Shown one piece after another: positions 1 through 61,746 of a DNA stretch of 64,000 nucleotides. The DNA is taken from contig OX243817.1 in assembly GCA_945859605.1 (NCBI GenBank), positions 34,870,968-34,934,967 on the forward strand, written 5' to 3'. Both the position numbers and the translations under genes were made by a program. Positions within the stretch are counted from its first letter, which is position 1; the number at the start of each line of letters is the position of its first letter. The notes beneath the pieces are model-generated. The model saw only the letters and a list, made by a program, of their open reading frames with translations. It searched no databases and was not told where the DNA came from. Origin of the DNA: Lumbricus rubellus. Its lineage: Eukaryota; Annelida; Clitellata; Crassiclitellata; Lumbricidae.

Positions 1-530
1 ATATCTCTGGTTGGCCAACCATGACATCGTTTACGTGTCATCCACTCATTTGCTTCTGACGGCCAATGGGGACATAAAACGGATCGAACATGGTCAGTCG
101 TTAATTCATTAAATGACAATAAATTCATTTTATTCTTCCACGCACCATCGAATAGGTAACTAACCTCGCTCTGCGTCATTAGACGACTTTTGATTGCTGG
201 TCCATGAAGAGATTTGCGACTCCATTTGAAATATTCAATCTTTTCTTCTCGACGCTGAAACAACCGAGCAAATCCCAAATGACAATCTTTGGTTTCAATT
301 GTAAATATTTCCCCATGAAATGATTTAGAAATGACGGTGGTTTCTGCTGCAGCAATGACGGTGCGGTCGTAGAACAACTGATCAAGATCGGTTAAATTCA
401 ACATCGCGTATTCGAGCGGTTGCTCATAGAAGCTGCCGCAGAATAAGATGCCTATGTGGCAACTGCGAGGGATAATATGTTTGCAGAAACTGTCAAAATT
501 TTCATCTGATAGCGCATCCGGGTTATCCAT
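1..530 (-). CDS. Mab-21/cGAS-like protein, 5' part, truncated by window edge
   Basis: The N-terminal 176 codons of a cGAS-like nucleotidyltransferase; the rest lies left of the window. The ATG at 530 is preceded directly by an in-frame TAA, so the start is firm. Visible motifs: GSFYEQ at residues 32-37, TDLD with Asp48 and Asp50, HLGFARL near 83-90, and TTDHV with Asp146 followed by CPHWP and EW..RKRCHGWPTRD. These match the nucleotidyltransferase core and the third acidic residue of Mab-21 proteins. No frame break is seen. The N-terminus (CKHIIPRSCHIGIL) is closer to the gene at 59716 than to its neighbour at 2592, so it belongs to that subgroup. Function as an innate sensor is inferred from the family. 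Confidence 0.85.
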   Translation of the reverse strand, partial: MDNPDALSDENFDSFCKHIIPRSCHIGILFCGSFYEQPLEYAMLNLTDLDQLFYDRTVIAAAETTVISKSFHGEIFTIETKDCHLGFARLFQRREEKIEYFKWSRKSLHGPAIKSRLMTQSEVSYLFDGAWKNKMNLLSFNELTTDHVRSVLCPHWPSEANEWMTRKRCHGWPTRD

Positions 531-1499
531 TTATTTTAACTTTGAACTTCGGCGTTTCAGATGTTTGTAGCAGCGTTCAAATAAAAGTAGGCTATCTAAC
601 CAGGACTGTTCCACCAACATCTTACTCTGGCAGACCCCTATTATACAAATGAACATTAAAGTGCACACGATGCATGTTGTTGCACAACTTAAGTTTAAAT
701 TGATATATCAAATCCAAACTATTTCAGTGCAGTTGCAGTTGCAGACTGCAGTCATTAAATTTGAATTTGGCATTTCCTTTATTCACCTTTGCGTCAGATT
801 CAATCGTTGAACCTTTTTTTTCAATAGCTCATCTTCACATAGACCTCTGAAGAGCTCGTGGACCTAGGCAGAGTGCCTACTATGCTTTGTGAATAAAACG
901 AGCTTGTGTTAAATGCAATCTATAGAACAACAGGAGAAAGATATAAAAAGGAGTGAACCAGAGCAGTTATTCTTACCTCCACGAGCACTCCGTATGCAAT
1001 TACTCTCGCTCTTAACGTCCTTATGTCGAATCCCACACAAAGACTGAAATAATTATACCCTATAACTGTCGGCATAAAATATATATTATAGCGTTTTACG
1101 CTGGATTAGGTCCTAATGAGGTAAGCCCACAGGCTATAACGAAAACAAGTCCATAAATCCAAGAGCCACGTCGCATATAAAGAAATTGAAGATGGTCTCT
1201 TATTATATAAACATGTATAATTGTATATATAAACGCATAGCATATAAATTATATATAGCCTATTATATAATTATTGTATGCCCAAGCATGTGCGTGTTCG
1301 TGTCTGTGTTGTATGTGAGCCTAGAGAGAAACCGACAATAAAATTATGTCCAGGCTCAACAAGGAACATTTAACCTATTACTTATTTGCACGCGCAAAAT
1401 ACCTCGTACGAAAGACCAATTAAAATATGTGAGCATGATAGAAGACCGAAAACAGCAGCTCAACCACACACACTGGAAAGTAACAGACAGAAAAGTGAT
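531..1499. other. Intergenic spacer, no gene seen
   Basis: AT-rich sequence upstream of the partial gene, where its promoter or 5' noncoding exon is expected. I see no coding region, RNA gene or element with clear ends. Confidence 0.5.
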
Positions 1500-1622
1500 T
1501 TAGTCTGACGCTAGGACAACAGTGTTCCTGTACACACATATATACACACACGCACACGCAAACACACACACACACCCACACACACAAACGCACACACAAC
1601 TCACACGCACACATACACATGC
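1500..1622. repeat. Imperfect CA/TG microsatellite
   Basis: Interrupted CA dinucleotide runs. The reading frames across it are low-complexity Cys/Val strings and are not genes. Confidence 0.85.
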
Positions 1623-2591: not shown

Positions 2592-4670
2592 TTAGTCACA
2601 ATGAGTGACGCAGTCGACGCGGAGAGCGACAGATAACATGGCAATCGACAGTCTTCTAAGATAAACATAAATCTCCTTGTGAGCATCACAAAACAGTCTC
2701 ATGTCATCTAAACAATCACCACAGCTCAGTCGCAACTTATTTCTGCACCGAATTCGAATATACTCCAGAAATTCACCAGCACAAATCTGAATAACGAGAT
2801 CACGAACCAGTAATCTTGGGTCCAACGCAGTGCTTTCGTTAGACCTAATGGCAGTCATGTAGAGAGCCAGAAAGCCGAACAGAGCTTGAATGCCTGAATC
2901 GAATATGTTTATATAATGGCGATTTATGAACATGCAAAGTACTTCATTTGAGAATTCTTCTTCAAACGTGTTCAGACTGAAAACATTTCTCAATGAAATC
3001 AAAGATGCCAGTCCCTCTTCGCATACCTTTAATGCCTTTCGATAATCACGTAGACCACTATACAAAAAATTCGCATAGTATGCGGCGCTGATAAAGTAGG
3101 ATGCATTGTGGTGATTGGCATCAACTGTTGATATTATGGATTGAAAAAGGGCTTCCATGGTTTCTTTAGTCACACTGCCTTCCTCTGTTCGCCTATAGCA
3201 ACACATTCGCTGTTTGTGCACACCGGGGGTTTCACACAAAAAGCTGCTTACGGCAGTCGCAAAGGAGTCACACAGTGAAATATAAACATCTGAATAACTG
3301 CTTGCACTTTTCCTTTCCAAACTGATCTGAAAGTAGATCAAAGCATCTGCTTTGAAAACCTTCCTTTTTTCGCTGATATTTTCTTCACCTGAAGATAGAT
3401 CAGACATCAGAAGACGATGCAATTGTACTGCTCTGAATAAATGCTCGACTTCATTACGGAGTAATGCATTTGATGACAAATCTTTCACAATGTATCTTCC
3501 ACGTTCTTCATTGAATGCATTCGTAAAGTATCTTCTATTTATTCCTAGTTGCAATAGCAGTATCACCTTGCCGCTGAGCTGAACGTGAATCATTTTGCCA
3601 CGATAAACCTTTGGTTCCCTAGTAACGACTCTGTGAATAATTTTGAGGGCGTCGTGCAACAACGAAACTTCGCTGCTCACGTCAACTTCGCTCTGCAAAT
3701 AGTCAAGCATGTTGTATCCTCGTATGAAATAATTTGGACAATTTCTCTCAATTACCCATTGAATCATCTGCAGAAGTAACTCTTCAATGGCTGCCTCAAT
3801 TCGATCTTCATTCCAAAAGTCAGAAGGTTTTTCTTCGCAAGACCACAACATAAGAGTTTTGAAGAAATATGTGCACAGAAATGTCTTCTTCTCTCCTCCA
3901 CATCTTGCAACGATATCAGATTTAAGAAGTCGAAGTATGTGATAGACATACTTTTGAACTTCATTCCAAGAATTGAGCAATAGTAACTCTGCCTGGGAAA
4001 AGGAAAACCTCCAAGTAGTGTTATCATCAGGATTGCTTTGGTGTGACTTCGGAACAAGATGACACCCACCTGCGACAATTTTATCAATCATATCTCTGGT
4101 TGGCCAACCACGACATCGTTTGCGAGTTCGCCACTCATCTGCTTCTGATGGCCAGTGAGGGCATAAAACGGATGTAACAACGTCAGTTGTAAATTCTTCA
4201 AATCCTTTAAAATTCGGTGCACACTGCTGTGCATTGCTGAATATATTCCTGACTTCAGACCACGTCGGCAGACGTTTTTTTACTGCTGGTCCGTGAAGGT
4301 AATGGTGATGCCTTATATAATAGTGAAACCTGTCCCCACAACATTGCAATAACCGAGCAAATCCCAAATGACAGTTTTTAGTTTGAATTTTTAGTATTGC
4401 TCCATGAAAAGATTTTGAAATTATCGCGGTTTCTGTTGCAGCAATGAGTTTGCGATCGAAGAACATGTTATCAAGATCTGTTAAATTCAACAACGCGTAT
4501 TCGAGTGGTTGTTCGTAGAAGCTACCGCAGATCAACGTGTCCGGATGGTAATTGAGAGGAAGAATATGTTTTCCAAAATCCTCAAAGTCTCCAAGTTGTT
4601 GAACATCCATTTGATGTACCTTTGAGCTTAAGGTCTGTCTGACGTCTGGTCGAACAATTTGAGTTAGCAT
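2592..4670 (-). CDS. Mab-21/cGAS-like protein with helical C-terminal extension (cGLR candidate)
   Basis: A 692-residue single-exon protein. Residues 45-310 form a Mab-21 domain: GSFYEQ 49-54, acidic pair Asp65/Asp67, third acidic Asp163 before CPHWP, EADEWRTRKR, GGCHLVPKSH 201-210, WRFSFSQAEL 220-229 and FKTLMLWSCEE 270-280. All expected catalytic positions are present, so it may be an active nucleotidyltransferase making a cyclic or linear oligonucleotide signal; that step is inference. Residues 320-692 extend well past a usual Mab-21 protein of about 360 residues. They contain a TPR-like stretch at 525-560 (AAYYANF..GLRDYRKALKVCEEGLASL). The ATG at 4670 is used; a TTG one codon earlier is also open. 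In the paralog at 13981 the frame opens with the matching ATG, which supports this start. A later Met21 is possible. Confidence 0.9.
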   Translation of the reverse strand: MLTQIVRPDVRQTLSSKVHQMDVQQLGDFEDFGKHILPLNYHPDTLICGSFYEQPLEYALLNLTDLDNMFFDRKLIAATETAIISKSFHGAILKIQTKNCHLGFARLLQCCGDRFHYYIRHHHYLHGPAVKKRLPTWSEVRNIFSNAQQCAPNFKGFEEFTTDVVTSVLCPHWPSEADEWRTRKRCRGWPTRDMIDKIVAGGCHLVPKSHQSNPDDNTTWRFSFSQAELLLLNSWNEVQKYVYHILRLLKSDIVARCGGEKKTFLCTYFFKTLMLWSCEEKPSDFWNEDRIEAAIEELLLQMIQWVIERNCPNYFIRGYNMLDYLQSEVDVSSEVSLLHDALKIIHRVVTREPKVYRGKMIHVQLSGKVILLLQLGINRRYFTNAFNEERGRYIVKDLSSNALLRNEVEHLFRAVQLHRLLMSDLSSGEENISEKRKVFKADALIYFQISLERKSASSYSDVYISLCDSFATAVSSFLCETPGVHKQRMCCYRRTEEGSVTKETMEALFQSIISTVDANHHNASYFISAAYYANFLYSGLRDYRKALKVCEEGLASLISLRNVFSLNTFEEEFSNEVLCMFINRHYINIFDSGIQALFGFLALYMTAIRSNESTALDPRLLVRDLVIQICAGEFLEYIRIRCRNKLRLSCGDCLDDMRLFCDAHKEIYVYLRRLSIAMLSVALRVDCVTHCD

Positions 4671-5340: not shown

Positions 5341-5985
5341 TGACCGTACAAAATGGTAGCGGACACAATGGTATGGACAAAATGTTACGGACAAAATGGT
5401 ATGGAGGAAATGAAAGCTGGATTAGTGAATTTTTATATATGAAATAGAAGCTGGACTAATGAAAAGACGCATGTGAAATGGAAGCTGGATGAAGGCTCTG
5501 CGTGGATATTTTTATGAAATGGAAGCTGGATTGATGAAAATAACGCTTTAGATATAGAATCTGTATCAGGGTTTTTTCATAGCTGAAATAGAAATTGGAT
5601 TAATGAAAGATGCATTACAAATAGAGGTTGGTTTAAGGAATCTTATGGCTGAAATAGAAGCTGTATACATCACGAAACACATGAATGAAAGACGTCAATC
5701 CAGCTTCCATTTCACAAGCATTTTTATTCGCCAATCCGGCTTTCTTTTCTCACGTTTTTGCTTAACTACAGCTGTATTTCAGCCCCCCAAAGCCATCCAC
5801 CCTCTATTTCAGCAATAAAATACCCTCATCTAGCGTCAATTTATCTACTGTATACCGTTTTGTCTTTACCATTTTGTCCGTGCCATTTTGTCCGTACCAT
5901 TTTGTCCGTGCCATTTTGTCCGTACCATTTTATCCGTGCCATTTTGTCCGTACCATTTTATCCGCTGCCATTTTGTCCTAGAACC
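5341..5985. mobile_element. Foldback element with tandem-repeat arms (GGACAAAATGGTA type)
   Basis: The left arm (5343-5405) has degenerate copies of a GGACAAAATGGTA unit. The right arm (5855-5979) has the same unit inverted and tandemly repeated (TACCATTTTGTCCG). The interior has tandem segments around GAAGCTGGATTAATGAAA, plus an inverted copy near 5690-5750. The right end reads TTCTAGGAC on the complementary strand, the same terminal string as the element at 62035. No coding capacity was seen. Confidence 0.65.
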
Positions 5986-6156
<171 letters not shown>

Positions 6157-13090: not shown

Positions 13091-13296
13091 GGGGCACGGT
13101 GTTGTAGTGGTGGCGTCGTTGCCTTGGAGCCGGAAGGTTCGAGGTTCGAATCCACATCGCTGCGTAGGGACCTTGAGCAAGTCTTTCACTCACAATTGCT
13201 CAGCACTTCGGCGTGAAACTCCGATGCAGTGTCCGCTCTGCATTGGGAAACACCTCTGAGTAGTGAGAGCTTGATGGGGCGCTATAACAAGTGCAC
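13091..13296 (+). mobile_element. tRNA-derived SINE, copy 1
   Basis: The head has a degenerate polymerase III A box (GTTGTAGTGG) and a perfect B box GGTTCGAATCC at about 13140-13155. A SINE body and a tail ending GGCGCTATAACAAG follow. The same unit occurs at 18499-18700 and, 5'-truncated, at 57888-58010. Confidence 0.85.
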
Positions 13297-13361
13297 AGTC
13301 ATGCCTACACAAACGATTGAGACCATATAATTATAGGCGTAGACCAAAGTTATAATATATA

Positions 13362-13980: not shown

Positions 13981-16056
13981 CTATCGCAGAATGCTGTAGC
14001 GAGCGTAGTCAATGCTGATAGCGGCAGATAGCATGGCAATCGAGTGAATCGACAGTCTTCTAAGAGCAACATGAATCTCCTTGTGAGCATCACAAAACAG
14101 CCTCGTGTTATCTAAACAATCACCATTGCTCATGTGCAACTTATTTCTACACCGAATTCGAATATACTCCAGAAACTCACTAGCACAAACCTGAATAACG
14201 AGATCACGAACAAGTAATCTTCGGTCCAACGCAGACCGTTCATTCTGACTAATGTCTGTCATATAGAGAGTGATAAATCCGAACAGAGCTTGAATGCCTG
14301 AATCGAATATGTCTATATATTGGCGATTTATGAAGATGCGAAGTATTTCATTTGAGAAGGCAACTTCAAACGTATTCATACTAAAAATTTGTTTTAATGA
14401 TTTCAGACATGCCAGTCCCTCTTCACATATCTTTAATGCCTGTCGATAATCATGTAGACCAGTATACAAAAAATTCGCATAGTATGCGGAGCTGATGAAG
14501 TAGGACGCATTCGGGTGAATGGCATCAACTGTTGATAGTATGGATTGACACAGAGCTTCCATGACTTCGCTCGTCAAATTGCCTTCCTCTGTTCGCCGAT
14601 AGCAACACAGGCGCTGTTTGTTTACACCGGGTGTGTCGCACAAAAACCTGTTTACGGCGATCGGAAGCGAATCAAACAGTGAAATGTAGACATCCGAGTA
14701 ACTGTTTGCACCTTTCCTTTTGCAGCTAGTCTGAAAGTTACTCAAAGCATCTGCATCGTATGCCTTCCTTCTTTCGCTGATATTTTCTTCACCTGAAGAT
14801 AGATCAGCCATCAGAAGACGATGCAATTGTACTGCTCTGAATAAATGCTCGACTTCATTACGGAGTAATGCACTTGATGACAAATCTTTCACAATGTATC
14901 TTCCACGTTCTTCATTGAATACATTCGTAAAATATTTTCTATTTATTGCGAGTTGACATAGCAGTATCGCCTTGTCGCTGAACTGAACGTGAAGCATTTT
15001 GCCACAATAAACTTTTGGCTCCCTACAAATAACTCCATGAATGACTTGGAGAGCGTCGTGCAACAATGAAACTTCGTTGCTAACATCAGTATCACAATGC
15101 AAATAGTCAAGCATGTTGTACCCTCGTATGAAATAATTTGGACAATTTTTTTCAATTACCCATTGAATCATCTGCAGAAGTAACTCTTCAATAGTTGCCT
15201 CAATTCGATCTACATTCCAAAAGTCAGACGACTTTTCTTCGCAAGCCCACAGCATCAATGTTTTGAAGAAGTATGTGCACAGAAATGTCTTCTTCTCTCC
15301 TCCACTTTTCTTAACCATATCGGATTTCAGAAGTCGAAGTATGTGGTAAATATACTTTTGAACTTCATTCCAGCTGTTCACCAATATCAACTCCGCCTTG
15401 GAAAACGACAACCTCCAAATAGTGTCATCGTTTGGATTGTTTTCGTGTGACTTTGGAACAAGATGACATCCACCTGCGACAATTTTCTCAATCAAATCTC
15501 TGGCTGGCCAACCATGACATCGTTCACGAGTTCTCCACTCATCTGCTTCTGTTGGCCAGTGAGGACATAAAACGGATGTAACAACGTCAGTCGTAAATTC
15601 TTCAATTGCTTTTAATTTCGGTGTATACTGCAGTGCATTGTCGAATATAGTGGTGACTTCAGACCACACCGCCAGACGCTTTTTTATTGCTGGTCCACGA
15701 AAGGGTTTGCGATTCAATATTTCGTCACGACGCCTCAGTAAACGAGCAAATCCCAAATGACAGTTTTCAGTTTCAATTGTTAGTATTTCACCATGAAAAG
15801 AGTTTGAAATCATCGCGGTTTCTGTTGCAGCAATGAGCTTTCGGTCGTAGAACATGTGATCAAGATCGGTTAAATTCAACAACGCGTATTCGAGTGGTTG
15901 TTCGTAGAAGCTACCGCAGACTAACGTGGCCGGGTGGTAGTTGAGAGGAAGAATATGCCTGCGAAAATTGTCAAATTCTTCAAATTGTTGGGGATTCATT
16001 TCCTGTACCTTTGAGCCCAGATTCTGTTTGATATTTGCCCGGACATTTGTTAACAT
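13981..16056 (-). CDS. Mab-21/cGAS-like protein with helical C-terminal extension (cGLR candidate)
   Basis: 691 residues, one exon, ATG at 16056. Core motifs: GSFYEQ 48-53, Asp64/Asp66 in TDLDHM, Asp157 in TTDVV before CPHWP, GGCHLVPKSH, WRLSFSKAEL and FKTLMLWACEE. The extension carries the TPR-like segment SSAYYANFLYTGLHDYRQAL and the C-terminal FLEYIRIRCRNKL motif seen in all complete members. Closest relatives in the window are the genes at 2592 and 45644: shared HILPLNYHP N-terminus, shared 5' flank, shared 3' flank with 2592. It is head-to-head with the gene at 20078, about 4 kb apart. Enzymatic activity is plausible from the intact acidic residues, not shown. Confidence 0.9.
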   Translation of the reverse strand: MLTNVRANIKQNLGSKVQEMNPQQFEEFDNFRRHILPLNYHPATLVCGSFYEQPLEYALLNLTDLDHMFYDRKLIAATETAMISNSFHGEILTIETENCHLGFARLLRRRDEILNRKPFRGPAIKKRLAVWSEVTTIFDNALQYTPKLKAIEEFTTDVVTSVLCPHWPTEADEWRTRERCHGWPARDLIEKIVAGGCHLVPKSHENNPNDDTIWRLSFSKAELILVNSWNEVQKYIYHILRLLKSDMVKKSGGEKKTFLCTYFFKTLMLWACEEKSSDFWNVDRIEATIEELLLQMIQWVIEKNCPNYFIRGYNMLDYLHCDTDVSNEVSLLHDALQVIHGVICREPKVYCGKMLHVQFSDKAILLCQLAINRKYFTNVFNEERGRYIVKDLSSSALLRNEVEHLFRAVQLHRLLMADLSSGEENISERRKAYDADALSNFQTSCKRKGANSYSDVYISLFDSLPIAVNRFLCDTPGVNKQRLCCYRRTEEGNLTSEVMEALCQSILSTVDAIHPNASYFISSAYYANFLYTGLHDYRQALKICEEGLACLKSLKQIFSMNTFEVAFSNEILRIFINRQYIDIFDSGIQALFGFITLYMTDISQNERSALDRRLLVRDLVIQVCASEFLEYIRIRCRNKLHMSNGDCLDNTRLFCDAHKEIHVALRRLSIHSIAMLSAAISIDYARYSILR

Positions 16057-18498: not shown

Positions 18499-18700
18499 TG
18501 GGCGCGGTGGTCTAGTGGTGGCGTCGTTGCCTTGGAGCCAGAAGGTCCGAGGTTCGAATCCACCTGGCCGCGTAAGGACCTTGGGCAAGTCCTTCACTCA
18601 CAATTGCTCAGCGCTTCGGCGTGAAACTCCGATGCAGTGTCCGCTCTGCATCGGGAGCGCCTCTGAGTAGAAAGAGCTTGAAGGGGCGCTATAACAAGTA
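18499..18700 (+). mobile_element. tRNA-derived SINE, copy 2 (best preserved)
   Basis: Intact A box (TGGTCTAGTGG) and B box GGTTCGAATCC in the tRNA-like head, then a roughly 130 bp body. The tail contains CGGGAGCGCCTCTGAGTAG and GGCGCTATAACAAG. The tail matches the 3' end of the LINE at 58662 and 23694, suggesting the SINE borrows that LINE's machinery. It sits inside a trinucleotide microsatellite. Confidence 0.9.
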
Positions 18701-20077: not shown

Positions 20078-22111
20078 ATGAAACTTATTTCGAGACGGCA
20101 AAGAGATATAGATTTAGATCATGTTGAAGATCTTGAAAACTTTTGCAAGCATATTCTTCCTCGTCCTTGCAAAAAGGGCGTATTCTTCTGTGGCAGCTTC
20201 TACGAACAGGCCATCGAATACGCGATGCTGAATTTAACTGATCTTGACCATATGCAATTCGACCGCACCGTCATAGCGGCGACAAAAGACCAGGACATTT
20301 CGAGACATTTTCACGCAGAGATACTAAGCATTGATACTAATAAATGTCACTTGGGATTTGCTCGCTTATTGCGGCGTTGCGGAGAAAAGACGGAATGCAT
20401 CAGTCTTAGCAGAAAATCATTACACGGACCAGCAATAAGAAGTCGTCTGATAACGTGGTCTGAGGTCAGTGATATATTCAACGCAGCATTGAAGATCCGT
20501 CCAAATTTAAAAGCCTTTGTAGAAATGACGAATGACTACGTATACGCCATCCTATGTCCTTACTGGCCACCAGAGGCCGAGGAGTGGAGAACTCGTAAAC
20601 GATGTCATGCTTGGCCAACCAGAGATTTGATTGAGAAAATTGTCGCAGGTGGATGTCATCTTGTTCCGAAGTCACATCATAGCAATCCTAATGATAACAC
20701 TAGTTGGAGGTTTTCTTTTTCTCGGGCGGAGTTAATATTGCTGAGTAGTTGGAGTGAAGTCCAAAAGTATGTTTACCACATACTTCGACTTCTTAAATCC
20801 AATGTCGTTGCAACATGTGGAGGTGAGAATAAGACATTTCTATGCACATACTACTTCAAAACTCTTATGTTGTGGGCTTGCGAGGAAAAACCCTCTGACG
20901 TTTGGTGTGAAGATCAAATTGAAGCAACCATTGAAGAGTTGCTGTTGCAGATGATTCAATGGGTTATTGACAGAAATTGTCCAAATTATTTTTTCCCAGG
21001 GTACAACATGCTTGACTATTTGCAGAACGAAGTTGATGTGAGCAGAGAAGTTTTACTCTTGTATGACGCTCGCAAAGTTGTTCCAACAGTTATTACATCT
21101 CAACCAAAGGTTTACCGTGGCAAAGTGTTTCATGTTCTGATTAGTGATAAGGCGTTACTTTTGGCTCAGCTGGCAATAAACAGAAGATTTTTCAGCAATG
21201 CGTTGAATCCTAAACACGGAAGATATATTGTGGAAAAATTATCAACATGTCCATTGTTGAGTCGTGAAGTAGAACATTTATACAGAGCAATTCAATTGCA
21301 CCATCTCATGGCATCAGATCTGATTTCATGTGAAGAGAAGATCAGCGATCGAAGGAAATTTTACGAAATAGAGGCCTTGAGAAACTTTAAGATTGGTTGC
21401 AAAAGTAAAGGTGCAAACAGTTACTCAGATGTTTATATTTCATCGCTGGATAATCTTTCGCGCACCGTAGACAAGTTTTTATTCGGAACACCCGATGAGC
21501 AAAGGCAGCGCATGTGCTGCTATCGACGATCAGATGAAGAAAATTTGACAAAAGAAGCCATGGAAGCTCTATGTCAAACAATGATATCTACACTCGACAA
21601 CAATCACTACAATCCGTCGTTTTTCATCAGCGCCGCTTACTATGCGAATTTCCAATACACAGGTCTACAAGATTATTGGCAGGCATTGATGATTTGTGAG
21701 GAGACGCTGGCGTCATTCGGAAGATTAGAGAAAACAGTTGGTCTGAATACGTTTGAAGCTGCTTTCTCAGATGAAATTCTTTGCGTTTTTATAAATCGCC
21801 AATATATAAACATATTCGATAAGGGAATTCAGGTTATTTTTGGATTTTTGACACTCCTTATTAATTGTATTAAACGTATTGCGAAACGCAAGTTGCATAG
21901 AACGTTACTTGTACGTGATTTCGTTCTTCAAGTTTGTCCTGTTGGAATTCTGGAGTATATTCGAATTAGGTGTAGAAGTAAGTTGCATCTGAGTAAAGGC
22001 GATTGCTTTGAGACCTTGAACTTCTTATACGATAAAGATAGCGAGAGAGATACCGCTCTTAGAAAACAGTCGAATGCAACCTTTTTTGCCGCTCTGTGCA
22101 TTAAGCTGTGA
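20078..22111 (+). CDS. Mab-21/cGAS-like protein with helical C-terminal extension (cGLR candidate)
   Basis: 677 residues in one coding exon. GSFYEQ 39-44, Asp55/Asp57 in TDLDHM, Asp153 in TNDYVYAILC before CPYWP, GGCHLVPKSH, WRFSFSRAEL and FKTLMLWACEE mark the Mab-21 domain. A TPR-like stretch (SAAYYANFQYTGLQDYWQAL) lies near residues 514-546. The start is the first ATG after the inferred acceptor at 20046. The N-terminus has a basic lead (KLISRRQRD) absent from siblings. It is most like the genes at 25029 and 55439. All predicted catalytic acidic positions are kept, so activity is possible. It is followed by 3' flank shared with those siblings, interrupted by a hAT-type insertion. Confidence 0.9.
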   Translation: MKLISRRQRDIDLDHVEDLENFCKHILPRPCKKGVFFCGSFYEQAIEYAMLNLTDLDHMQFDRTVIAATKDQDISRHFHAEILSIDTNKCHLGFARLLRRCGEKTECISLSRKSLHGPAIRSRLITWSEVSDIFNAALKIRPNLKAFVEMTNDYVYAILCPYWPPEAEEWRTRKRCHAWPTRDLIEKIVAGGCHLVPKSHHSNPNDNTSWRFSFSRAELILLSSWSEVQKYVYHILRLLKSNVVATCGGENKTFLCTYYFKTLMLWACEEKPSDVWCEDQIEATIEELLLQMIQWVIDRNCPNYFFPGYNMLDYLQNEVDVSREVLLLYDARKVVPTVITSQPKVYRGKVFHVLISDKALLLAQLAINRRFFSNALNPKHGRYIVEKLSTCPLLSREVEHLYRAIQLHHLMASDLISCEEKISDRRKFYEIEALRNFKIGCKSKGANSYSDVYISSLDNLSRTVDKFLFGTPDEQRQRMCCYRRSDEENLTKEAMEALCQTMISTLDNNHYNPSFFISAAYYANFQYTGLQDYWQALMICEETLASFGRLEKTVGLNTFEAAFSDEILCVFINRQYINIFDKGIQVIFGFLTLLINCIKRIAKRKLHRTLLVRDFVLQVCPVGILEYIRIRCRSKLHLSKGDCFETLNFLYDKDSERDTALRKQSNATFFAALCIKL

Positions 22112-25028: not shown

Positions 25029-27044
25029 ATGGACGAAAATATGGATCTACAATACGTTGAAGATTTTGAAGACTTTCGCAATCATATTCTTCCTCCTACT
25101 GGCGAAAATGCCCTGGTCTTCTGCGGTAGCTTCTATGAGCAACCACTCGAATACGCGATGTTGAATTTAACTGATCTTGACACCATGACCTTCGTTCGCA
25201 CCGTCATCGCGGCAACAAGAGGCCAGGACATTCCGAAGAATTTTTGCGGAGAAATACTAACTATTGAAACTATTAATTGTCATTTGGGATTTGCTCGCTT
25301 ATTTCGGCGTCGAGAAGAGAAAACTGAGTGCATCATTCTTTGTCGAAAATCTCTCCACGGACCAGCAATCAGAAAGCGCCTGGTAACGTGGTCTGAGGTC
25401 AGCGACATTTTTGACGCCGCATTGAAGTTCAGACCAAATTTAAAAGCTTTTGTAGAAATGTCGACTGACGTCGTTTTATCATTTTTATGTCCTCACTGGC
25501 CACCAGAGGCCACTGAGTGGATTATACGTACACGAATCAGCGGCTGGCCGAACAAGGATTTGATTGAGAAAATTGTCGCAGGTGGATGTCATCTTGTACC
25601 GAAGTCACATCATAGCAATCCTAATGATGAAACTAGTTGGAGGTTTTCTTTTTCCCAGGCAGAGTTAATATTGCTCAATTCTTGGAATGAAGTTCAAAAG
25701 TATGTCTACCACATACTTCGAATTCTTAAATCTGATGTCGTTGCAAAATGTGGAGGTGAGAAGAAGACATTTCTATGCACATACTACTTCAAAACTCTTA
25801 TGCTGTGGGCTTGCGAGGAAAACACCCTTGACGTTTGGTGTGAAGATCAAATTGAAGCAACCATTAAAGAGTTGCTGTTGCAGATGATTGAATGGCTAAT
25901 TGATAAAAATTGTCCAAATTATTTTATCCGTGGGTACAACATGCTTGACTTCTTACATGGTGATTTTGATGTAAGCAACGAAGTTTCGCTGTTGCATGAC
26001 ACACTCCAACTATTTACAAAAGCCATTGATCTCCAGCCAATGATATATCGTGGCAAAGTGTTTCGGGTTCTGGTTACCGATAAGGCGTTACTGCTCGCTC
26101 AACTGGCGTTAAACAGAAGATTTCTCACTAACGCATTGGATCAGGAGCGTGGAAGATATGTTGTGGAAAAATTATCATCAAGTTCATTACTGAGTCGTGA
26201 AGTGGAACATTTATTTAAAGCAGTACAATTGCATCGTCTTCTGATGTCTGATCTGATATCAAGTGGAGAGAAGATCAGTGTGAAAATGAAAACCTACCAA
26301 ACCGATGCTTTGAGTGACTTCAAGTTTAGTTGCAAAAGGAAAGAGACAAAAAGTTACTCAGCATTTTATATTTCATCGCTGGACTCCGTTTCCTGGACCG
26401 TAGACAAGTTTATGTTCGGAACACCGGATGAGCAAAAGCAGCGCATGTGTTGCTATCGAAGAACAGATGAAGGCAATTTGACAAAAGAAGCCATGGAAGC
26501 TCTATGTCAAAACTTGATATCAACAATCGATAATAATCATCACAATCCGTCCTTCTTTATCAGCGCCGCATACTATGCGAATTTCTGCTATACTTGTCTA
26601 CGAGATTATCGGCAGGCATTGAAAATATGTGATGAAGCGCTGGCATCATTCAGAAGATTGGAATCAGTCGTTAGTTTTGATACGTTTGAAGCTGCTTTCT
26701 CAGATGAAATTCTTTGCGTTTTCATAAATCGCCAATATATAAACATATTCGATGAGCGAATTCAAGTTATTTTTGGATTTTTGACTCTCCACACATATTA
26801 TATTAGGAGGATTGAGAAGCATGAATTGCATCAAAGGTTACATATGCATGAGTTCATTCTTCAAGTTTGTCCTGTTGGATTTCTGAAGTATATTAAAATT
26901 AGGTGTACAAGTAAGTTGCACCTGAGTAAAGGCGATTGTTTTGAGGGCCTGCATATATTATATGACAACTTTTATGACGGAGATACCGCTCTCAGAAAAC
27001 ATTCGAATGCAGCGTTTTTTGCCGCTCTTCGCATTAAGTTGTGA
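25029..27044 (+). CDS. Mab-21/cGAS-like protein with helical C-terminal extension (cGLR candidate)
   Basis: 671 residues, one coding exon. GSFYEQ 33-38, Asp49/Asp51 in TDLDTM, Asp147 in STDVV before CPHWP, GGCHLVPKSH, WRFSFSQAEL and FKTLMLWACEE. The TPR-like segment reads SAAYYANFCYTCLRDYRQAL. Two in-frame ATGs lie four codons apart (residues 1 and 5); the second aligns with the siblings' MDLxx starts, so either could be used. The usual FDR after the acidic pair is FVR here. Closest to the genes at 20078 and 55439, with which it shares 5' block, acceptor and 3' flank. Activity is inferred from intact motifs only. Confidence 0.9.
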   Translation: MDENMDLQYVEDFEDFRNHILPPTGENALVFCGSFYEQPLEYAMLNLTDLDTMTFVRTVIAATRGQDIPKNFCGEILTIETINCHLGFARLFRRREEKTECIILCRKSLHGPAIRKRLVTWSEVSDIFDAALKFRPNLKAFVEMSTDVVLSFLCPHWPPEATEWIIRTRISGWPNKDLIEKIVAGGCHLVPKSHHSNPNDETSWRFSFSQAELILLNSWNEVQKYVYHILRILKSDVVAKCGGEKKTFLCTYYFKTLMLWACEENTLDVWCEDQIEATIKELLLQMIEWLIDKNCPNYFIRGYNMLDFLHGDFDVSNEVSLLHDTLQLFTKAIDLQPMIYRGKVFRVLVTDKALLLAQLALNRRFLTNALDQERGRYVVEKLSSSSLLSREVEHLFKAVQLHRLLMSDLISSGEKISVKMKTYQTDALSDFKFSCKRKETKSYSAFYISSLDSVSWTVDKFMFGTPDEQKQRMCCYRRTDEGNLTKEAMEALCQNLISTIDNNHHNPSFFISAAYYANFCYTCLRDYRQALKICDEALASFRRLESVVSFDTFEAAFSDEILCVFINRQYINIFDERIQVIFGFLTLHTYYIRRIEKHELHQRLHMHEFILQVCPVGFLKYIKIRCTSKLHLSKGDCFEGLHILYDNFYDGDTALRKHSNAAFFAALRIKL

Positions 27045-29326: not shown

Positions 29327-29330
29327 GACT

Positions 29331-36235: not shown

Positions 36236-37893
36236 CGAGAAGAGTAGTGATCTGCTTATAACCTGAACATGTTTCAAAAAAAGCACTATTCAATGGCAGA
36301 TACAGTTGGCTTGTATCTTGGTTCAGCTATGTTACAGTGGTGACCTGTACATCATATTAGAATTGATATCTATTAGGCCTCTGCTTCTGTGCCAGCATAT
36401 GTTTGGTTTTATGTTTGGCTGTATGTTATGATTCTAAATTTTTTTGCACAGTATCTTAACTTACATTGAAGCTTGGATATCTTTGCATGACTAGTTTTAG
36501 TGCCAGCATATTGCAAGTGTGATTATCTGCTTATAACCTAAACATGTTTCAAAAATAGCACTATTCAATGGCAGATACAGTTGGCTTATATCTTGTTTCA
36601 GTTATGTTACAGTGGTGACCTGTGCATCATATTAGAATTGATATCTATTAGGCCTCTGCTTCTGTGCCAGCTTATGTTTGGTTTTATGTTGTCTGCATAT
36701 TATAATTCTAATTTTTTTGCACAGTATCTTAACTTACATTGAAGCTTGGATATCTTTTGCATGACTAGTTTTAGTGCCAGCATATTGCAAGTGTGATTAT
36801 CTGCTTATAACCTAAACATGTTTTAAAAATAGCACTATTCAATGGCAGATACAGTTGGCTTATATCTTGGTTCAGTTATGTTACAGTGGTGACCTGTGCA
36901 TCATATTAGAATTGATATCTATTAGGCCTCTGCTTGTGTCACAGCTTATGTTTGGTGTATGTTTGGCTGTATGTTATGATTCTAAATTTTTTTGCACAGT
37001 ATCTTAACTTACATTGAAGCTTGGATATCTTTTGCATGACTAGTTTTAGTGCCAGCATATTGCAAGTGTGATTATCTGCTTATAACCTAAACATGTTTCA
37101 AAAATAGCACTATTCAATGGCAGATACAGTTGGCTTATATCTTGTTTCAGTTATGTTACAGTGGTGACCTGTGCATCATATTAGAATTGATATCTATTAG
37201 GCCTCTGCTTCTGTGACAGCTTATGTTTGGTTTTATATTTGGCTGTATGTTATGATTCTAAATTTTTTGCACAGTATCTTAACTTACATTGAAGCTTGGA
37301 TATCTTTGCATGACTAGTTTTAGTGCCAGCATATTGCAAGTGTGATTATCTGCTTATAACCTAAACATGTTTCAAAAATAGCACTATTCAATGGCAGATA
37401 CAGTTGGCTTATATCTTGTTTCAGTTATGTTACAGTGGTGACCTGTGCATCATATTAGAATTGATATCTATTAGGCCTCTGCTTCTGTGCCAGCTTATGT
37501 TTGGTTTTATGTTGTCTGCATATTATAATTCTAAGTTTTTTGCACAGTATCTTAACTTACATTGAAGCTTGGATATCTTTTGCATGACTAGTTTTAGTGC
37601 CAGCATATTGCAAGTGTGATTATCTGCTTATAACCTAAACATGTTTCAAAAATAGCACTATTCAATGGCAGATACAGTTGGCTTATATCTTGGTTCAGTT
37701 ATGTTACAGTGGTGACCTGTGCATCATATTAGAATTGATATCTATTAGGCCTCTGCTTGTGTCACAGCTTATGTTTGGTGTATGTTTGGCTGTATGTTAT
37801 GATTCTAAATTTTTTTGCACAGTATCTTAACTTACATTGAAGCTTGGATATCTTTGCATGACTAGTTTTAGTGCCAGCATATTGCTTCCAAGA
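36236..37893. repeat. Satellite: six tandem copies of a 275 bp unit
   Basis: The landmark TGCTTATAACC occurs at 36252, 36527, 36801, 37077, 37351 and 37625, a period of 273-276 bp. Copies differ by a few substitutions and short indels; the last ends at CAGCATATTGC near 37885. No conserved reading frame. Confidence 0.95.
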
Positions 37894-40065: not shown

Positions 40066-45643
<5,578 letters not shown>

Positions 45644-47686
45644 TCAAAGTTTTGAAAAAGTATGTGCATAATGAGTGTAGTCGACGCGGAGAGCGGCAGC
45701 TAACATGGCAATGGACAGCCTTCTAAGAACAACATATATCTCCTTATGAGCATCGTAAAACATCCTCGTGTCATCTAAACAATTGCCATTGCTCAGGTGC
45801 AACTTATTTCTACACCGAATTCGAATATACTCAAGAAATTCACCAGCACAAACCTGAATAACGAGATCACGATCAAATAACACTGGGTCCAACGCAGCCA
45901 TTTCGTTCTGCCTAACGACAGTCATGTAGAGAGTCAGAAAACCGAACAGAACTTGAATGCCTGAATCGAATATGTCTATATATTGACGATTTATGAACAT
46001 GCAAAGTATTTCATTTGAAAAGTTAACTTCAAACGTATTCAGACTAAAAACATTTCTTAATGACTTCAGAGATGACAGTCCCTCCTCGCATATCTCTAAT
46101 GCCTTTCGATAATCTCGTAGACCAGTAAAACAAAAATTGGCATGATATGCGGCGCTGATAAAGTAGGACGCATTGTAGTGATTGTCATCAGCTGTTGATA
46201 GTATGGATTGACACAGAGTTTCCAGGACTTCATTTGTCAAGTTGCTTTCTTCTGTTCGAGAAGAGCGACGTTCACGCTGCCTCTGCTCATCAGGTGTTTC
46301 ATGCAACAACCTGTTAATGGCCATCGAGAAGGAGTCAAGCAGCGAAATATAAGCATCTAAGTAACTGTTTGCACCTTTCCTTTTGCAACATATCTGAAAG
46401 TAACTCATAGCATCGGTTTCGTAGGTTTTTATTCTTTCGCTGATATTTTCTTCACCTGACGATAGTTCAGACATCATAGCACGATGCAATTGTACTGCTC
46501 TGAATAAGTGTTCAACTTCATTACGGAATAATGCACTTGATGACAAATCATTCACAGCAAATCTTCCACGCTGCTCATCCAATACATTCATAAAATATCT
46601 TCTATATAATGCTAGTTGACATAGAAGTATCGCCTTATCGCTGAGCTGAAGGTGAAGCATCTTGCCACGATATACCTTTGGTTCTCTGGCAATAACATCG
46701 TGAATGGCTTGGCGAGCGTCGCGGAATAGCTTGACCTCGTTACATACATCAAGATCACTTTTCAATATATCAAACATGTTGTTACCTCGTATGAAATAAT
46801 GTGGGCATTTTTTTTCTGTTATCCATTGAATCATCTGCGACAGTAACTCTTCAATGGCTGCCTCAATTCGATCTTCATTCCAAAAATCAGAAGGTTTTTC
46901 TTCACAAGCCCACAACGTCAAAGTTTTGAAGAAGTATGTGCACAGAAATGTCTTATTCTCACCTCCACATTTTGCAACGACATCAGATTTAAGAAGTCGA
47001 AGTATGTGGTAAACATACTTCTGCATTTCATTCCAAGTATTGACCAATATCACCTCCGCCTTAGAAAACGAGAACCTCCAACACGTGTAATCGTTAGGAT
47101 TGCTTTGGTGTGACTTTGGAACAAGATGACATCCACCTGCGACAATTTGTTCAATCATATCTCTGGTTGGCCAACCACGACATCGTTTACGAGTTCTCCA
47201 CTCATCGGCTTCTGTTGGCCAGTGAGGACATAAAACGGATGTAACAACATCAGCCTTAAATTCTTCGAATGCTTTTAAATTCGGTGCACGCTGCTGTGCA
47301 ATGTTGAATATTGTGCTGACTTCAGACCCCGTCAACAGACGCTTTTTGATTGCTGGACGTGGCGGACCGTGAAGAGATTTGCCACTCGATTTAGAGTAGT
47401 CGATCTTGACCCCACTGCGACGCAGTAGGCGAGCAAATCCCAAATGACAGTTTTCAGTTTCAAATGTTATTATTTTTCCATGAAAAGATTTTGAAGTCAT
47501 CGCGGTTTCTGTTGTAGCAATGACGTTGCGATCGAAGAACATGTGATCAAGATCGGATAAATTCAACATCGCGTATTCCAGTGGCTGTTCATAGAAGCTG
47601 CCGCACATTAGAAGGGCCGGATGGTAATTGAGAGGAAGAATACGCTTGCGAAAAAAGTAAAAATGCTCACAATGTTCCAAATCCAT
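45644..47686 (-). CDS. Mab-21/cGAS-like protein with helical C-terminal extension (cGLR candidate)
   Basis: 680 residues from the ATG at 47686 (MDLEHCEHF), which aligns with the siblings' MDxxx starts. The frame is open 29 codons further upstream but with only a TTG. GSFYEQ 29-34, Asp45/Asp47 in SDLDHM, Asp146 in KADVV before CPHWP, GGCHLVPKSH, WRFSFSKAEV and FKTLTLWACEE. A two-residue insertion (HGPPRPAIK) is unique. The last residues (HYAHTFSKL) are encoded by a translocated gene fragment, so the native C-terminus was replaced. TPR-like segment SAAYHANFCFTGLRDYRKAL. Closest to the genes at 2592 and 13981. Its 3' side abuts the 5.3 kb minisatellite. Confidence 0.88.
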   Translation of the reverse strand: MDLEHCEHFYFFRKRILPLNYHPALLMCGSFYEQPLEYAMLNLSDLDHMFFDRNVIATTETAMTSKSFHGKIITFETENCHLGFARLLRRSGVKIDYSKSSGKSLHGPPRPAIKKRLLTGSEVSTIFNIAQQRAPNLKAFEEFKADVVTSVLCPHWPTEADEWRTRKRCRGWPTRDMIEQIVAGGCHLVPKSHQSNPNDYTCWRFSFSKAEVILVNTWNEMQKYVYHILRLLKSDVVAKCGGENKTFLCTYFFKTLTLWACEEKPSDFWNEDRIEAAIEELLSQMIQWITEKKCPHYFIRGNNMFDILKSDLDVCNEVKLFRDARQAIHDVIAREPKVYRGKMLHLQLSDKAILLCQLALYRRYFMNVLDEQRGRFAVNDLSSSALFRNEVEHLFRAVQLHRAMMSELSSGEENISERIKTYETDAMSYFQICCKRKGANSYLDAYISLLDSFSMAINRLLHETPDEQRQRERRSSRTEESNLTNEVLETLCQSILSTADDNHYNASYFISAAYHANFCFTGLRDYRKALEICEEGLSSLKSLRNVFSLNTFEVNFSNEILCMFINRQYIDIFDSGIQVLFGFLTLYMTVVRQNEMAALDPVLFDRDLVIQVCAGEFLEYIRIRCRNKLHLSNGNCLDDTRMFYDAHKEIYVVLRRLSIAMLAAALRVDYTHYAHTFSKL

Positions 47687-55438: not shown

Positions 55439-57448
55439 ATGGATTTAAAACATCATGAGCAATTTGAAAACTTTCGCAATCATATTCTTCCTCGCAATAG
55501 AAAAAATGGCATACTCGTATGCGGTAGCCTTTTCGAACAGCCACTCGAATACGCGATGTTGAATTTAACTGATATTGACCACATGTTCTTCGACCGCACC
55601 ATCATTGCGGTAACAAAAGGCACGGACATTCCAAGGAATTTTTTCAGAGAAACGCTAGCCATTGAAACTAATAATTGTTATTTGGGATATGCTCGCCTAT
55701 TGAGGCGACGTGAAGAAAAAACGGAATTCATCATTCTTAATCGAAAATCTCTCCACGGACCAGCAATCAGAAAGTGTCTGATAACATGGTCTGAGGTCAG
55801 CGACATATTCGACGCAACATTGAAGTTCAGACCAAACTTTAAAGCCTTTACAGAAATGACTAGTGATTTCGTTTATTCCATTTTATGTCCTCACTGGCCA
55901 CCAGAGGCTACTGAGTGGAATATACGTACACGAAGTAGCGGCTGGCCGACCAGAGATTTGATTGAGAAAATTGTCGCAGGTGGATGTCATCTTGTTCCGA
56001 AGTCACATCATAGCAATCCCAATGATGAAACTAGTTGGAGGTTTTCTTTTTCAGGGGCAGAGTTGATTTTGCTCAATTCCTGGAATGAAGTCCAAAAATA
56101 TATATACCACCTACTTCGACTTATTAAATCTGATGTCATTGCAAAATGTGGAGGAGAGAAGAAGACATTTCTATGCACATACTACTTCAAAACTCTGATG
56201 ATGTGGGCTTGCGAGGAAAAACCTTCTGATTTTTGGAATGAAGATCAAATTGAGGCAACAATTGAAGAACTACTGCTGCAGATAATTCAATGGTTAATTG
56301 ACAGAAATTGTCCAAACTATTTCATCCGAGGGAACAACATGCTTGACTATTTGCTGAGCGAAGTTGATGTGAGCAGCGAAGTTTTACTCTTGCATGACGC
56401 TCGCAAAGTCATTCAAGCAATTGCTACATCTCAACCGAAGGTATATCGTGGCAAAGTGTTTCATGTTCTGATTAGTGATAAGGCGTTATTGATAGCTCAG
56501 CTGGCAATAAACAGAAGATTTTTTAGTAATGCATTGAATCATAAACACGGAAGATATATTGTCGAAAATTTATCATCAAGTCCTTTGCTGAGTCATGAAG
56601 TGGAACATTTATTCAGAGCAGTACAATTGCATTGTCGTCTAATGTCTGATCTATATTCTTGTGTAGAGAAGATAAGTGAAAGAAGGAAAACCTACGAAAC
56701 CAATGCATTGAGTTACTTTCATATTAGTTGCAAAAGGAAAGGTGCAAACAGTTACATAGATGTTTATATTTCATTGTTTGATTCTCTCGCTAATGCAGTA
56801 AACAGTTTTTTGTTTGAAACACCCGATGAACAGAATCAGCGCATGTGTTGCTATCGACGAACAGATGAAGGCAATTTGACAAAGGAAGCCATTGAAGCTC
56901 TATGTCAAAACTTGATAGCAACAGTCGATAACAATCATTACAACCCATCCTTCTTTATCAGCGCCGCATACCATGCGAATTTCCAATACATTGGTCTAAG
57001 AGATTATTGGCAGGCATTGAAGCTATGTGAGGAGGCGCTGGCATCATTCGGAAGATTGGAAGCAACCGTTGGCTTGAATACGTTTGAAGCTGTTTTCTCA
57101 GATGAAGTTCTTTGCGTTTTCATAAATCGCCAATATATAAACATATTCGATGAGGGAATTCAAGTTATTTTTGGATTTCTGACTCTCCACACAAATTATA
57201 TTCAGCGCATTGAGAAGCGTGAATTGCATGAAAGGTTACATATGCATGACTTCGTTCTTCAAGTTTGTCCTGTTGGATTACTGGAGTATATTCGAATTAG
57301 GTGTAGAAGTAAGTTGCATCTGAGTAAAGGCGATTGCTTTGAGACCTTGAACTTCTTACATGATATAGGCCTAGATAGTGAGAGAGATACCCCTCTTAGA
57401 AAACAGTCGAATGCAGTCTTTTTTGCCGCTCTTTGCATTAGGTTGTGA
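55439..57448 (+). CDS. Mab-21/cGAS-like protein with helical C-terminal extension (cGLR candidate)
   Basis: 669 residues, one coding exon, ATG at 55439 aligned to the siblings' MDLxx. The nucleotidyltransferase motif is GSLFEQ 29-34 (Leu-Phe instead of Phe-Tyr), Asp45/Asp47 in TDIDHM, Asp143 in TSDFVYSILC before CPHWP, GGCHLVPKSH, WRFSFSGAEL and FKTLMMWACEE. TPR-like stretch SAAYHANFQYIGLRDYWQAL, then VGLLEYIRIRCRSKLHLSKG. Near the C-terminus HDIGLDSERDT includes a codon run from a TAGGCCTAG string not present in the gene at 20078. Tail-to-tail with the gene at 59716, 2.3 kb apart. Confidence 0.9.
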   Translation: MDLKHHEQFENFRNHILPRNRKNGILVCGSLFEQPLEYAMLNLTDIDHMFFDRTIIAVTKGTDIPRNFFRETLAIETNNCYLGYARLLRRREEKTEFIILNRKSLHGPAIRKCLITWSEVSDIFDATLKFRPNFKAFTEMTSDFVYSILCPHWPPEATEWNIRTRSSGWPTRDLIEKIVAGGCHLVPKSHHSNPNDETSWRFSFSGAELILLNSWNEVQKYIYHLLRLIKSDVIAKCGGEKKTFLCTYYFKTLMMWACEEKPSDFWNEDQIEATIEELLLQIIQWLIDRNCPNYFIRGNNMLDYLLSEVDVSSEVLLLHDARKVIQAIATSQPKVYRGKVFHVLISDKALLIAQLAINRRFFSNALNHKHGRYIVENLSSSPLLSHEVEHLFRAVQLHCRLMSDLYSCVEKISERRKTYETNALSYFHISCKRKGANSYIDVYISLFDSLANAVNSFLFETPDEQNQRMCCYRRTDEGNLTKEAIEALCQNLIATVDNNHYNPSFFISAAYHANFQYIGLRDYWQALKLCEEALASFGRLEATVGLNTFEAVFSDEVLCVFINRQYINIFDEGIQVIFGFLTLHTNYIQRIEKRELHERLHMHDFVLQVCPVGLLEYIRIRCRSKLHLSKGDCFETLNFLHDIGLDSERDTPLRKQSNAVFFAALCIRL

Positions 57449-57887: not shown

Positions 57888-58010
57888 GGACCTTGGGCAA
57901 GTCCTTCACTCGCAATTGCTCAGCGCTTCGGCATGAAACTCCGATGCAGTGTCTGCGCTGTAGTCGGGGGCGCCTCTGGGCAGGAGCTTGAAGGGGCGCT
58001 ATAACAAGTG
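57888..58010 (+). mobile_element. tRNA-derived SINE, 5'-truncated copy 3
   Basis: Begins within the body (GGACCTTGGGCAAGTCCTTC) and ends GGCGCTATAACAAG; lacks the tRNA-like head with A and B boxes. Confidence 0.85.
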
Positions 58011-58025
58011 CACATACCAACTTAG

Positions 58026-58199: not shown

Positions 58200-58207
58200 C
58201 AACTTAG

Positions 58208-59340: not shown

Positions 59341-59460
59341 ATTGCCTCACTGTTTGCATTACGACACATGTAGGCCTAATTTTATTCATAATAATCAGAT
59401 TCACAAAACTAGCATGTCTGAATCTAAACTTCTAAGTCATAGGCCTACAGTTCATTCATA
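59341..59460 (-). other. 3' flank shared with the gene at 45644
   Basis: TGTTTGCATTACGACACATG, TAGGCCTAA and CATGTCTGAATCTAAACTTCTA parallel 45446-45540, and the first part parallels 42140-42193 inside the minisatellite. Confidence 0.7.
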
Positions 59461-59715
59461 GCCTATATTACTGTAATTACCTCATAACCTAGTCCAAATT
59501 ATTCTGCTTTCTTCATTTTCTGAAAATTCCTATGCTTTGTCTACGACGTTTCAATTTACGAACCTCACGTGTTACTCAAAGTTTCTTCTCTTTGGCTCCT
59601 TTTAGCTCTTGATTGTCTCTCACAGTTCGCAAAATTACATCATTATCGTAACAAAATTACATAAATGAGGGAAAACGTCCGAGGTTTACCCCTTTGCAAC
59701 CAATCACCATGCAAC
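59461..59715. other. 3' spacer of the gene at 59716
   Basis: Nothing recognised. Confidence 0.4.
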
Positions 59716-61746
59716 CTATAAAAGACTACGATAATTGTAGTCAACGGAAACAGCGGCAGACAGAGCGGCATTCGACATCTTTCTAACACCGGTGTCTCTC
59801 TCCTTATTAATGATATGAAAAACTTTCATGGCTTCAAGACGGTCAAGTTCGCCAAGATGCAACTTGTTTCTACACCGAATTCGAATATACTCCAGAAATT
59901 CTAAAGGAAATATTTGTAGGACAAAATCTCGTTCCGGTAAACTTCGGACAGACGCTTGCATCTCATTCTGTTTAATTCTGCCGCCAATTGCCACGCAGAG
60001 TGTAAGAAACCCCCAAACGCATTGAATTCTTGCGTCGAACATGTCTATGTATTGACCATTAACAAAAACGCAAAGTATCTCATTTGAGAAAGTAGGTTCC
60101 AGAATGTTCATACTGAAAACATTTGCCAGATACCGGAAAGCTGCCAGCGTCTCTTCGCATATTTTTAATGCTTTTCGATAATCTCGTAGGCCAGTATATT
60201 GAAAATTGGCATAGTATGCGGCGCTGATAAAGTAGGACGCATTCTGGTGATTGACATCAGCTGCTGATATTATGGATTGACAAATAGCTTCTATGGCTTC
60301 TTTTGCCAAATTACTTTTGTCTGTTCGACGAAAGCGCCACTCACGCTGCCTCCGCTCATTGGGCATTTCATGCAAAAACCTGTGTATGGAGGTGGAAAGA
60401 GAGTCGAACAGAGAAAAATAAGCATCTAAATAACGGTTTGCACCTTTCCTCTTGCAACTAATCTGAAAGTATCTCAAAGCATCGGTTTCGTAGGGTTTCT
60501 TTCTTTCACTGAAATTGTCTTCACCTGAAGATAGATTAGACATCAGAAGACGATGCAATTCTACTGCCCTGAATAAATGCTCGACTTCATTACGGAATAA
60601 TGCACTTGATGACAAATTATTCACTATGAATCTTTCACGCTTTTGATCCAATAAATCGACAATAAATCTCCGGTTTATTTTTAGCTGACCCAAAAGTATC
60701 GCCTTGTCGCTGAACTGAAGGTGAATCATTGTGCTACGATAAGCAATTGGTTCCTTAGCAACGACTCTGTGAATGACTTGGAGAGCGGCATGCACCAACA
60801 AAACTTCGTTGCTTACATCAAAATCACCTTGTAAGAAGTCAAGCATGTTGTTTTCTCTCATAAAATAATTTGGACAATTTTTTTCAATAACCCATTGAAT
60901 CATCTGCAACAGCAACTCTTCAATGGCTGCCTCAATTCGATCTTCAGTCCAAAAATCAGGAGGTTTCTCTTCGCAAGCCCACAACATCAGAGTTTTGAAA
61001 AAGTATGTGCACAGAAATGTGTTCTTCTTCCCTCCACATTTCTTAACTATATCGGATTTAAGAAGTCGAATTATATGATAGACATATTTTTGAACTTCAT
61101 TCCAAGTACTGAGCAATATCAACTCCGCCTTAGAAAAAGAAAACCTCCAACAAGTGTCATCGCTGGAATTGCTTTCGTGTGACTTTGCAACAAGATGACA
61201 TCCACCATTGACAATTTGGTCAATCGTATCTCGAGTTGGCCAACCACGGCATCGTTGACGAGTTCTCCATTCAGCGGCCTCTGACGGCCAGCAAGGGCAT
61301 GAAATGGCGTAGACATAGTCAATCATATATTCTGTAAAGGCTTTAAAGTTTGGCTTATACTCAGATACAGCGCTGAATAAATTGCTGACCTCAGACCACG
61401 CTACCAAACGCTTTGTGAATGCTGTTCGTTGGATGGCTTTACGTTTCCGAATATAGTATTCCGTTTTCCCTTCACGACACCGCAATAAATGCGCAAATCC
61501 CAAATGACAATTTGTAGTTTCAATGGTTAGCACTTCTCCGTAAAAGTTCTTTGGAATGACTGTGAGTTCTGTTGCAGCAATGAGGGTTCGGTGGCAGAAC
61601 ATGTGGTCAAGATCACTTAAATTCAACATCGCGTATTCTAATGGTTGCTCATAGAAGCTGCCGCAACCTAATATTCCCAAACTGCAAGTGCGTGGAAGAA
61701 TATGATTGCAGAATGTGTCAACATTTTCTTTGGATTGTAAGTCCAT
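59716..61746 (-). CDS. Mab-21/cGAS-like protein with helical C-terminal extension (cGLR candidate)
   Basis: 676 residues, ATG at 61746. GSFYEQ 29-34, Asp45/Asp47 in SDLDHM, Asp143 in MIDYVYAISC before CPCWP. It is the most divergent complete member: NGGCHLVAKSHESN replaces AGGCHLVPKSH, HGPAI is RTAFT, CHR replaces FDR after the acidic pair. WRFSFSKAEL, FKTLMLWACEE and the C-terminal FLEYIRIRCRNKLHL are kept. TPR-like segment SAAYYANFQYTGLRDYRKALKICEE. N-terminus (TFCNHILPRTCSLGIL) pairs it with the partial gene at the left edge. Active-site acidic positions are intact, so catalytic competence is possible but unproven. Confidence 0.9.
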   Translation of the reverse strand: MDLQSKENVDTFCNHILPRTCSLGILGCGSFYEQPLEYAMLNLSDLDHMFCHRTLIAATELTVIPKNFYGEVLTIETTNCHLGFAHLLRCREGKTEYYIRKRKAIQRTAFTKRLVAWSEVSNLFSAVSEYKPNFKAFTEYMIDYVYAISCPCWPSEAAEWRTRQRCRGWPTRDTIDQIVNGGCHLVAKSHESNSSDDTCWRFSFSKAELILLSTWNEVQKYVYHIIRLLKSDIVKKCGGKKNTFLCTYFFKTLMLWACEEKPPDFWTEDRIEAAIEELLLQMIQWVIEKNCPNYFMRENNMLDFLQGDFDVSNEVLLVHAALQVIHRVVAKEPIAYRSTMIHLQFSDKAILLGQLKINRRFIVDLLDQKRERFIVNNLSSSALFRNEVEHLFRAVELHRLLMSNLSSGEDNFSERKKPYETDALRYFQISCKRKGANRYLDAYFSLFDSLSTSIHRFLHEMPNERRQREWRFRRTDKSNLAKEAIEAICQSIISAADVNHQNASYFISAAYYANFQYTGLRDYRKALKICEETLAAFRYLANVFSMNILEPTFSNEILCVFVNGQYIDMFDARIQCVWGFLTLCVAIGGRIKQNEMQASVRSLPERDFVLQIFPLEFLEYIRIRCRNKLHLGELDRLEAMKVFHIINKERDTGVRKMSNAALSAAVSVDYNYRSLL

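Follow-up and report, generated by a model that had tools for sequence, protein, structure and literature searches.

A stretch of 64,000 nucleotides from the annelid Lumbricus rubellus (contig OX243817.1, positions 34,870,968 to 34,934,967; hereafter the window) contains a genuine gene cluster that encodes cGAS-like enzymes of the Mab-21 family, which carry a conserved extra domain at the C-terminus that lacks a convincing structural match. We favour the reading, at a probability of about 0.5, that these genes are a local family of cGAS-like nucleotidyltransferases in which a core makes a cyclic dinucleotide and the C-terminal domain acts as a switch. The predicted fold, the conservation of residues, the common extension and the constraint on the genes carry this reading, in which activity, product, ligand and the part played by the extension are predictions.

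The genes and their cGAS-like core

The list of open reading frames (ORFs) gave seven complete Mab-21 genes and one cut by the window edge, on both strands (Table 1), and tblastn at 1e-3 found no additional copies or fragments within the window. All seven complete proteins scored above the gathering threshold for both PF03281 (Mab-21) and PF20266 (Mab-21_C). Their pairwise identity is 57-77%, which together with the profile E-values excludes chance resemblance. Thus, the eight paralogs listed by a first-pass annotation, made from the DNA alone, were confirmed. In-frame stops lie 2-6 codons 5' of the ATG in five of the seven complete genes (g1, g2, g4, g6 and g7), so that these frames open in that exon, and the single coding exon per gene that had been claimed is likely. 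A Pfam scan of seven further ORFs in the window gave nothing above cut-off.

Table 1. Positions of the Mab-21 genes in the window, and of two parts of the modelled protein; active-site residues are numbered within each protein.
Feature	Positions	Strand	Description	Residues or model
g0	3..530	-	N-terminal 176 aa of eighth Mab-21 gene, rest cut by window edge	CGS 31, D48/D50, D146
g1	2592..4670	-	Mab-21 gene, 692 aa	CGS 48, D65/D67, D163
g2	13981..16056	-	Mab-21 gene, 691 aa; protein modelled	CGS 47, D64/D66, D157
g2 C-terminal extension, residues 325-691	13984..15084	-		AlphaFold2 of extension alone, pTM 0.81
g2 conserved module, residues 520-640	14137..14499	-	TPR-like hairpin, IFDxxIQ helix, FLxYI helix	N528, D585, Y631
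g3	20078..22111	+	Mab-21 gene, 677 aa	CGS 38, D55/D57, D153
g4	25029..27044	+	Mab-21 gene, 671 aa	CGS 32, D49/D51, D147
g5	45644..47686	-	Mab-21 gene, 680 aa	CGS 28, D45/D47, D146
g6	55439..57448	+	Mab-21 gene, 669 aa	CGS 28, D45/D47, D143
g7	59716..61746	-	Mab-21 gene, 676 aa	CGS 28, D45/D47, D143

The putative active site appears intact. A Cys-Gly-Ser motif, a D-x-D motif and a later Asp are present in all eight proteins, with Cys-Pro 7-8 residues after that Asp; the residue before Gly-Ser is Cys, a detail that differs from the earlier description. At this position, the 43 alignment rows with a letter there (the seven complete window proteins included) have C in 22, T in 9, S in 8, A in 2, and I and V in one each. 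Among 49 chosen rows, hardly any extension-bearing relative departs from the catalytic residues, although most of these relatives are only 26-38% identical to g2. The zinc thumb of vertebrate cGAS has the pattern H-x5-CC-x6-C, which is absent from all eight proteins (g0 being partial).

Structure prediction for g2 gave a cGAS/cGLR fold, as had been anticipated, and hence the predicted structural homology to cGAS-like receptor (cGLR) and CD-NTase enzymes that PMC9980059 uses as a criterion. The best Foldseek match of the model was 8gjy (E = 6.9e-11).

The genes are also constrained. Whole-gene ratios of nonsynonymous to synonymous divergence (dN/dS) are 0.31-0.44 in all 21 pairs, at dS values of 0.31-0.80, and on this average we rejected the description of the set as rapidly evolving. 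The core (residues 20-329) has a mean dN of 0.19, the extension one of 0.26. By local dN/dS, constraint is tightest over residues 180-319, which are mostly helical lobe (0.17-0.21), and weakest over residues 660-691 (0.84), the sole interval near neutrality, preceded by one at 0.55. With the settings chosen, paralogs resemble one another at the DNA level mostly within the coding region and no more than ~100 bases of its flanks; among g1, g2 and g5 the similarity reaches ~300-430 bases upstream. In a tree the seven complete genes fall in one clade, with support of only 0.28, and we do not claim monophyly.

The C-terminal extension and its relatives

The large C-terminal extension had been noted before, but its length, counted from 18 residues after an NYF/HYF motif, is 357-367 residues rather than about 310. 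Modelled alone from a 44-row alignment, it gave a predicted template-modelling score (pTM) of 0.81 and a model in which short strands alternate with helices. In the extensions of the seven window proteins and 10 extension-bearing relatives, no Pfam family scored above cut-off; the recurrent sub-threshold match was COP9_hel_rpt, in five of the seven window proteins (best E = 0.0065). Comparison of the isolated extension with PDB structures gave no convincing match; the domain resembles 14-3-3 and TPR arrangements weakly. These results agree with the suggestion that the region is no part of the textbook cGLR. A TPR-like segment was described earlier, and g2 has a TPR-like hairpin, but no TPR profile exceeded the Pfam cut-off in the seven window proteins, the 10 extension-bearing relatives or 10 long relatives, three of which had sub-threshold TPR matches (best E = 0.028). 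Internal duplication of the extension was considered and rejected, as self-comparison of two C-terminal alignments gave no match.

The extension recurs outside the window. Used alone as a query it found five proteins in a large database, and by phmmer at 1e-3, in a search confined to the 115 homologues that the full-length query had retrieved, it matched 44 of them. N528, D585 and Y631 do not vary across the 34 long-C-terminus rows from outside the window; 33 of these rows retain G593, and 31 retain C544 and L597 each. A profile built from 44 rows was matched at E <= 1e-3 by 30 of the 78 homologues left, 14 of which belong to the 30 with long C-termini. The profile begins at residue 322, and several of the other 16 matches are short proteins that align just to its first part. 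The homologues of Mizuhopecten yessoensis (P0109) and Porites evermanni (P0111) had no accepted match to the extension, and in the viral contigs and prokaryote genome contigs searched no relative was confirmed by tblastn.

Among long-C-terminus relatives the C-terminal part has 332-661 residues, and about 600 in the proteins of ~950 residues (P0056, P0060 and others), which combine a Mab-21 core and a long C-terminal part as the window proteins do. These ~950-residue relatives may carry the module twice. The two copies aligned in hhalign at probabilities of 97.2% and 96.0% (scores 92 and 77), compared with scores of 12-20 for seven reversed or column-shuffled controls. The second copy is uncertain, because the values fall to 94.8% and 61.5% once the intermediates P0059, P0066 and P0088 are left out. 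Read in single proteins, the first copy is weak (in P0060, 0.14 compared to 7.8e-9 for the second).

Mechanism, ligand and competing explanations

In the mechanism that we favour, the N-terminal 345 residues are a Mab-21/cGAS catalytic core, which would most likely join two nucleoside triphosphates into a cyclic dinucleotide. The C-terminal domain of ~360 residues, conserved as a unit of its own, would most likely be the switch, binding a ligand or a partner protein and thereby releasing or ordering the active site. By analogy with cGLR biology (PMC9980059), STING-type receptors would then pass on the signal of this product.

What the proteins might sense bears on the strongest competing explanation, that they are ordinary nucleic-acid-sensing cGLRs whose core, like that of cGAS or Cv-cGLR1, is bound by double-stranded DNA or RNA (dsDNA, dsRNA), and whose extension serves only as a scaffold or localisation domain. 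In its favour, the predicted fold and active site are the same, and oyster cGLRs make 2'3'-cUA on dsDNA (PMC9980059). However, the dsDNA- and dsRNA-sensing cGLRs of that paper have isoelectric points (pI) above 8.5, whereas by this crude proxy, calculated here with a different program, the complete window proteins all fall below that value (6.44-8.41, with g3 and g7 at 8.40 and 8.41), which weakens nucleic-acid sensing. The N-terminal parts, including a few residues past the core, have pI values of 5.21-7.94. Among 34 relatives longer than 580 residues, whole-protein pI was below 8.5 in 29 and at least 8.5 in five, and that of the N-terminal 330 residues was at least 8.5 in two. Together with the missing zinc-thumb pattern, this leaves ordinary nucleic-acid sensing unlikely. 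Acidic cGLRs have been proposed to sense positively charged, non-nucleic-acid ligands (PMC9980059). The cores here are near-neutral, not strongly acidic, which as judged from sequence makes nucleic acid a less likely ligand but does not establish a different one. The extra domain may allow the detection of something other than DNA or RNA. Thus, the idea of nucleotide second-messenger sensors holds for fold and active site, but less well for nucleic acid as the ligand.

Several observations weigh against the switch reading, besides the crudeness of pI as a proxy. The published animal cGLR motif is h[QT]GS-X8-20-[DE]h[DE]h-X50-90-h[DE]h (PMC9980059); all eight window proteins have Cys in place of Q or T, and their third Asp follows at a spacing of 88-96, which exceeds the upper limit in seven of the eight. 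Because of these two departures we class them as Mab-21 family members rather than as cGLRs by that motif, and they probably work like cGLRs. Beyond the 49 chosen rows, our patterns did not always recover the active-site motif in more distant homologues. Superposition of the whole model on 8gjy was poor (Foldseek; root-mean-square deviation 10.9 Å, TMt 0.53). The regulatory role suggested for the extension is read solely from its conservation. The site of Mab21L1 is putatively complete, and whether this protein makes a signal is described as not understood (PMC9980059). For shrimp, three Mab21 proteins are reported whose action on IKK-epsilon involves no cGAMP synthesis (PMC12928593).

The shrimp precedent, in which Mab21 activates IKK-epsilon, favours catalysis-independent adaptors, whose core would bind nucleotide or nothing and whose helical extension, with its weak 14-3-3 and TPR likeness, would make protein contacts. 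We consider this decidedly unlikely, because near-complete retention of the catalytic residues in such divergent relatives would be unexpected if catalysis were dispensable. A developmental or housekeeping role without immune function, as for the Mab21L1-related proteins that share the fold (PMC9980059), is improbable for a multi-copy local cluster with the paralog dS values given above, whose match to Sp-cGLR1 is far better than that to Mab21L1 (4.9e-23 vs 1.4e-5).

The switch reading has a wider form, which is speculative and which we think rather unlikely: the proteins would belong to a large and so far unrecognised class of animal cGAS-like receptors. In this class a ligand other than nucleic acid would be detected by a dedicated C-terminal sensor domain with a new fold, instead of by the nucleic-acid groove, and the domain would switch a conserved cyclic-nucleotide synthase, its module being used once or twice depending on the branch. 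The paralogs are single ORFs with near-neutral cores, and their conserved extra domain is predicted to fold by itself, so that deleting or swapping it offers a direct approach to the ligand.

Neighbouring repeats and comparison with known systems

The window also holds repeats and ORF pieces. A 5.4 kb minisatellite of 9-bp units (~596 copies, 40069-45445) ends ~200 bases from g5, and the low-complexity ORFs of FPK/GNL type longer than 200 residues within it are artefacts. At 62037-63013 two tandem-repeat arrays (62038-62226 and 62799-63011) are mutually inverted and may be the termini of a small, non-autonomous mobile element; at 5348-5978 short arrays (5348-5412 and 5853-5978) with complementary 14-bp-type units are inverted in the same way. 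Minus-strand ORF pieces at 28309-29329 are presumably a retroelement remnant; the piece at 29000-29329 matches DUF6451 below threshold (E = 1.1e-4). A minus-strand ORF of 226 residues at 34968-35645 had no Pfam match at 0.1, and we take it to resemble the end of a tyrosine recombinase. A 274-bp satellite has six copies at 36250-37885 (95% matches), and a dispersed repeat of 125-201 bp, 85-91% alike, lies at 13092-13297, 18500-18699 and 57888-58014.

We found no description of the extension in the literature searched, and the proposal of an undescribed subfamily is partly right. On the other hand, PMC9980059 already reports bivalve expansions (more than 200 cGLRs in Dreissena polymorpha and Crassostrea virginica) alongside its proposal for acidic cGLRs, and there 87% of cGLRs have no extra domains while some have TPR or ankyrin modules. 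Such TPR or ankyrin fusions (Li et al. 2023, PMC9980059) join a cGLR core to an added repeat-type domain. The extension could be the TPR class of that paper; in the proteins scanned here no Pfam TPR scored above cut-off.

Of the solved structures, the best sequence match is Sp-cGLR1 of Stylophora pistillata (PDB 8gjy), over g2 residues 130-322. It shares with g2 an Asp aligned to D157 and the helical lobe, and its solved chain of 376 residues contains nothing matching the extension. Sp-cGLR1 is a dsRNA sensor that makes 3'3'-cUA (PMC9980059), whereas a nucleic-acid ligand is doubtful for the window proteins. Cv-cGLR1 of Crassostrea virginica (PDB 8gjw), a dsDNA sensor with 2'3'-cUA as its product (PMC9980059), likewise has a solved chain, of 355 residues, without a match to the extension. 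Human MB21D2 (PDB 7lt1) matches g2 residues 156-324 (E = 8.9e-13) and, when searched with the g2 sequence, shows no match to the extension.
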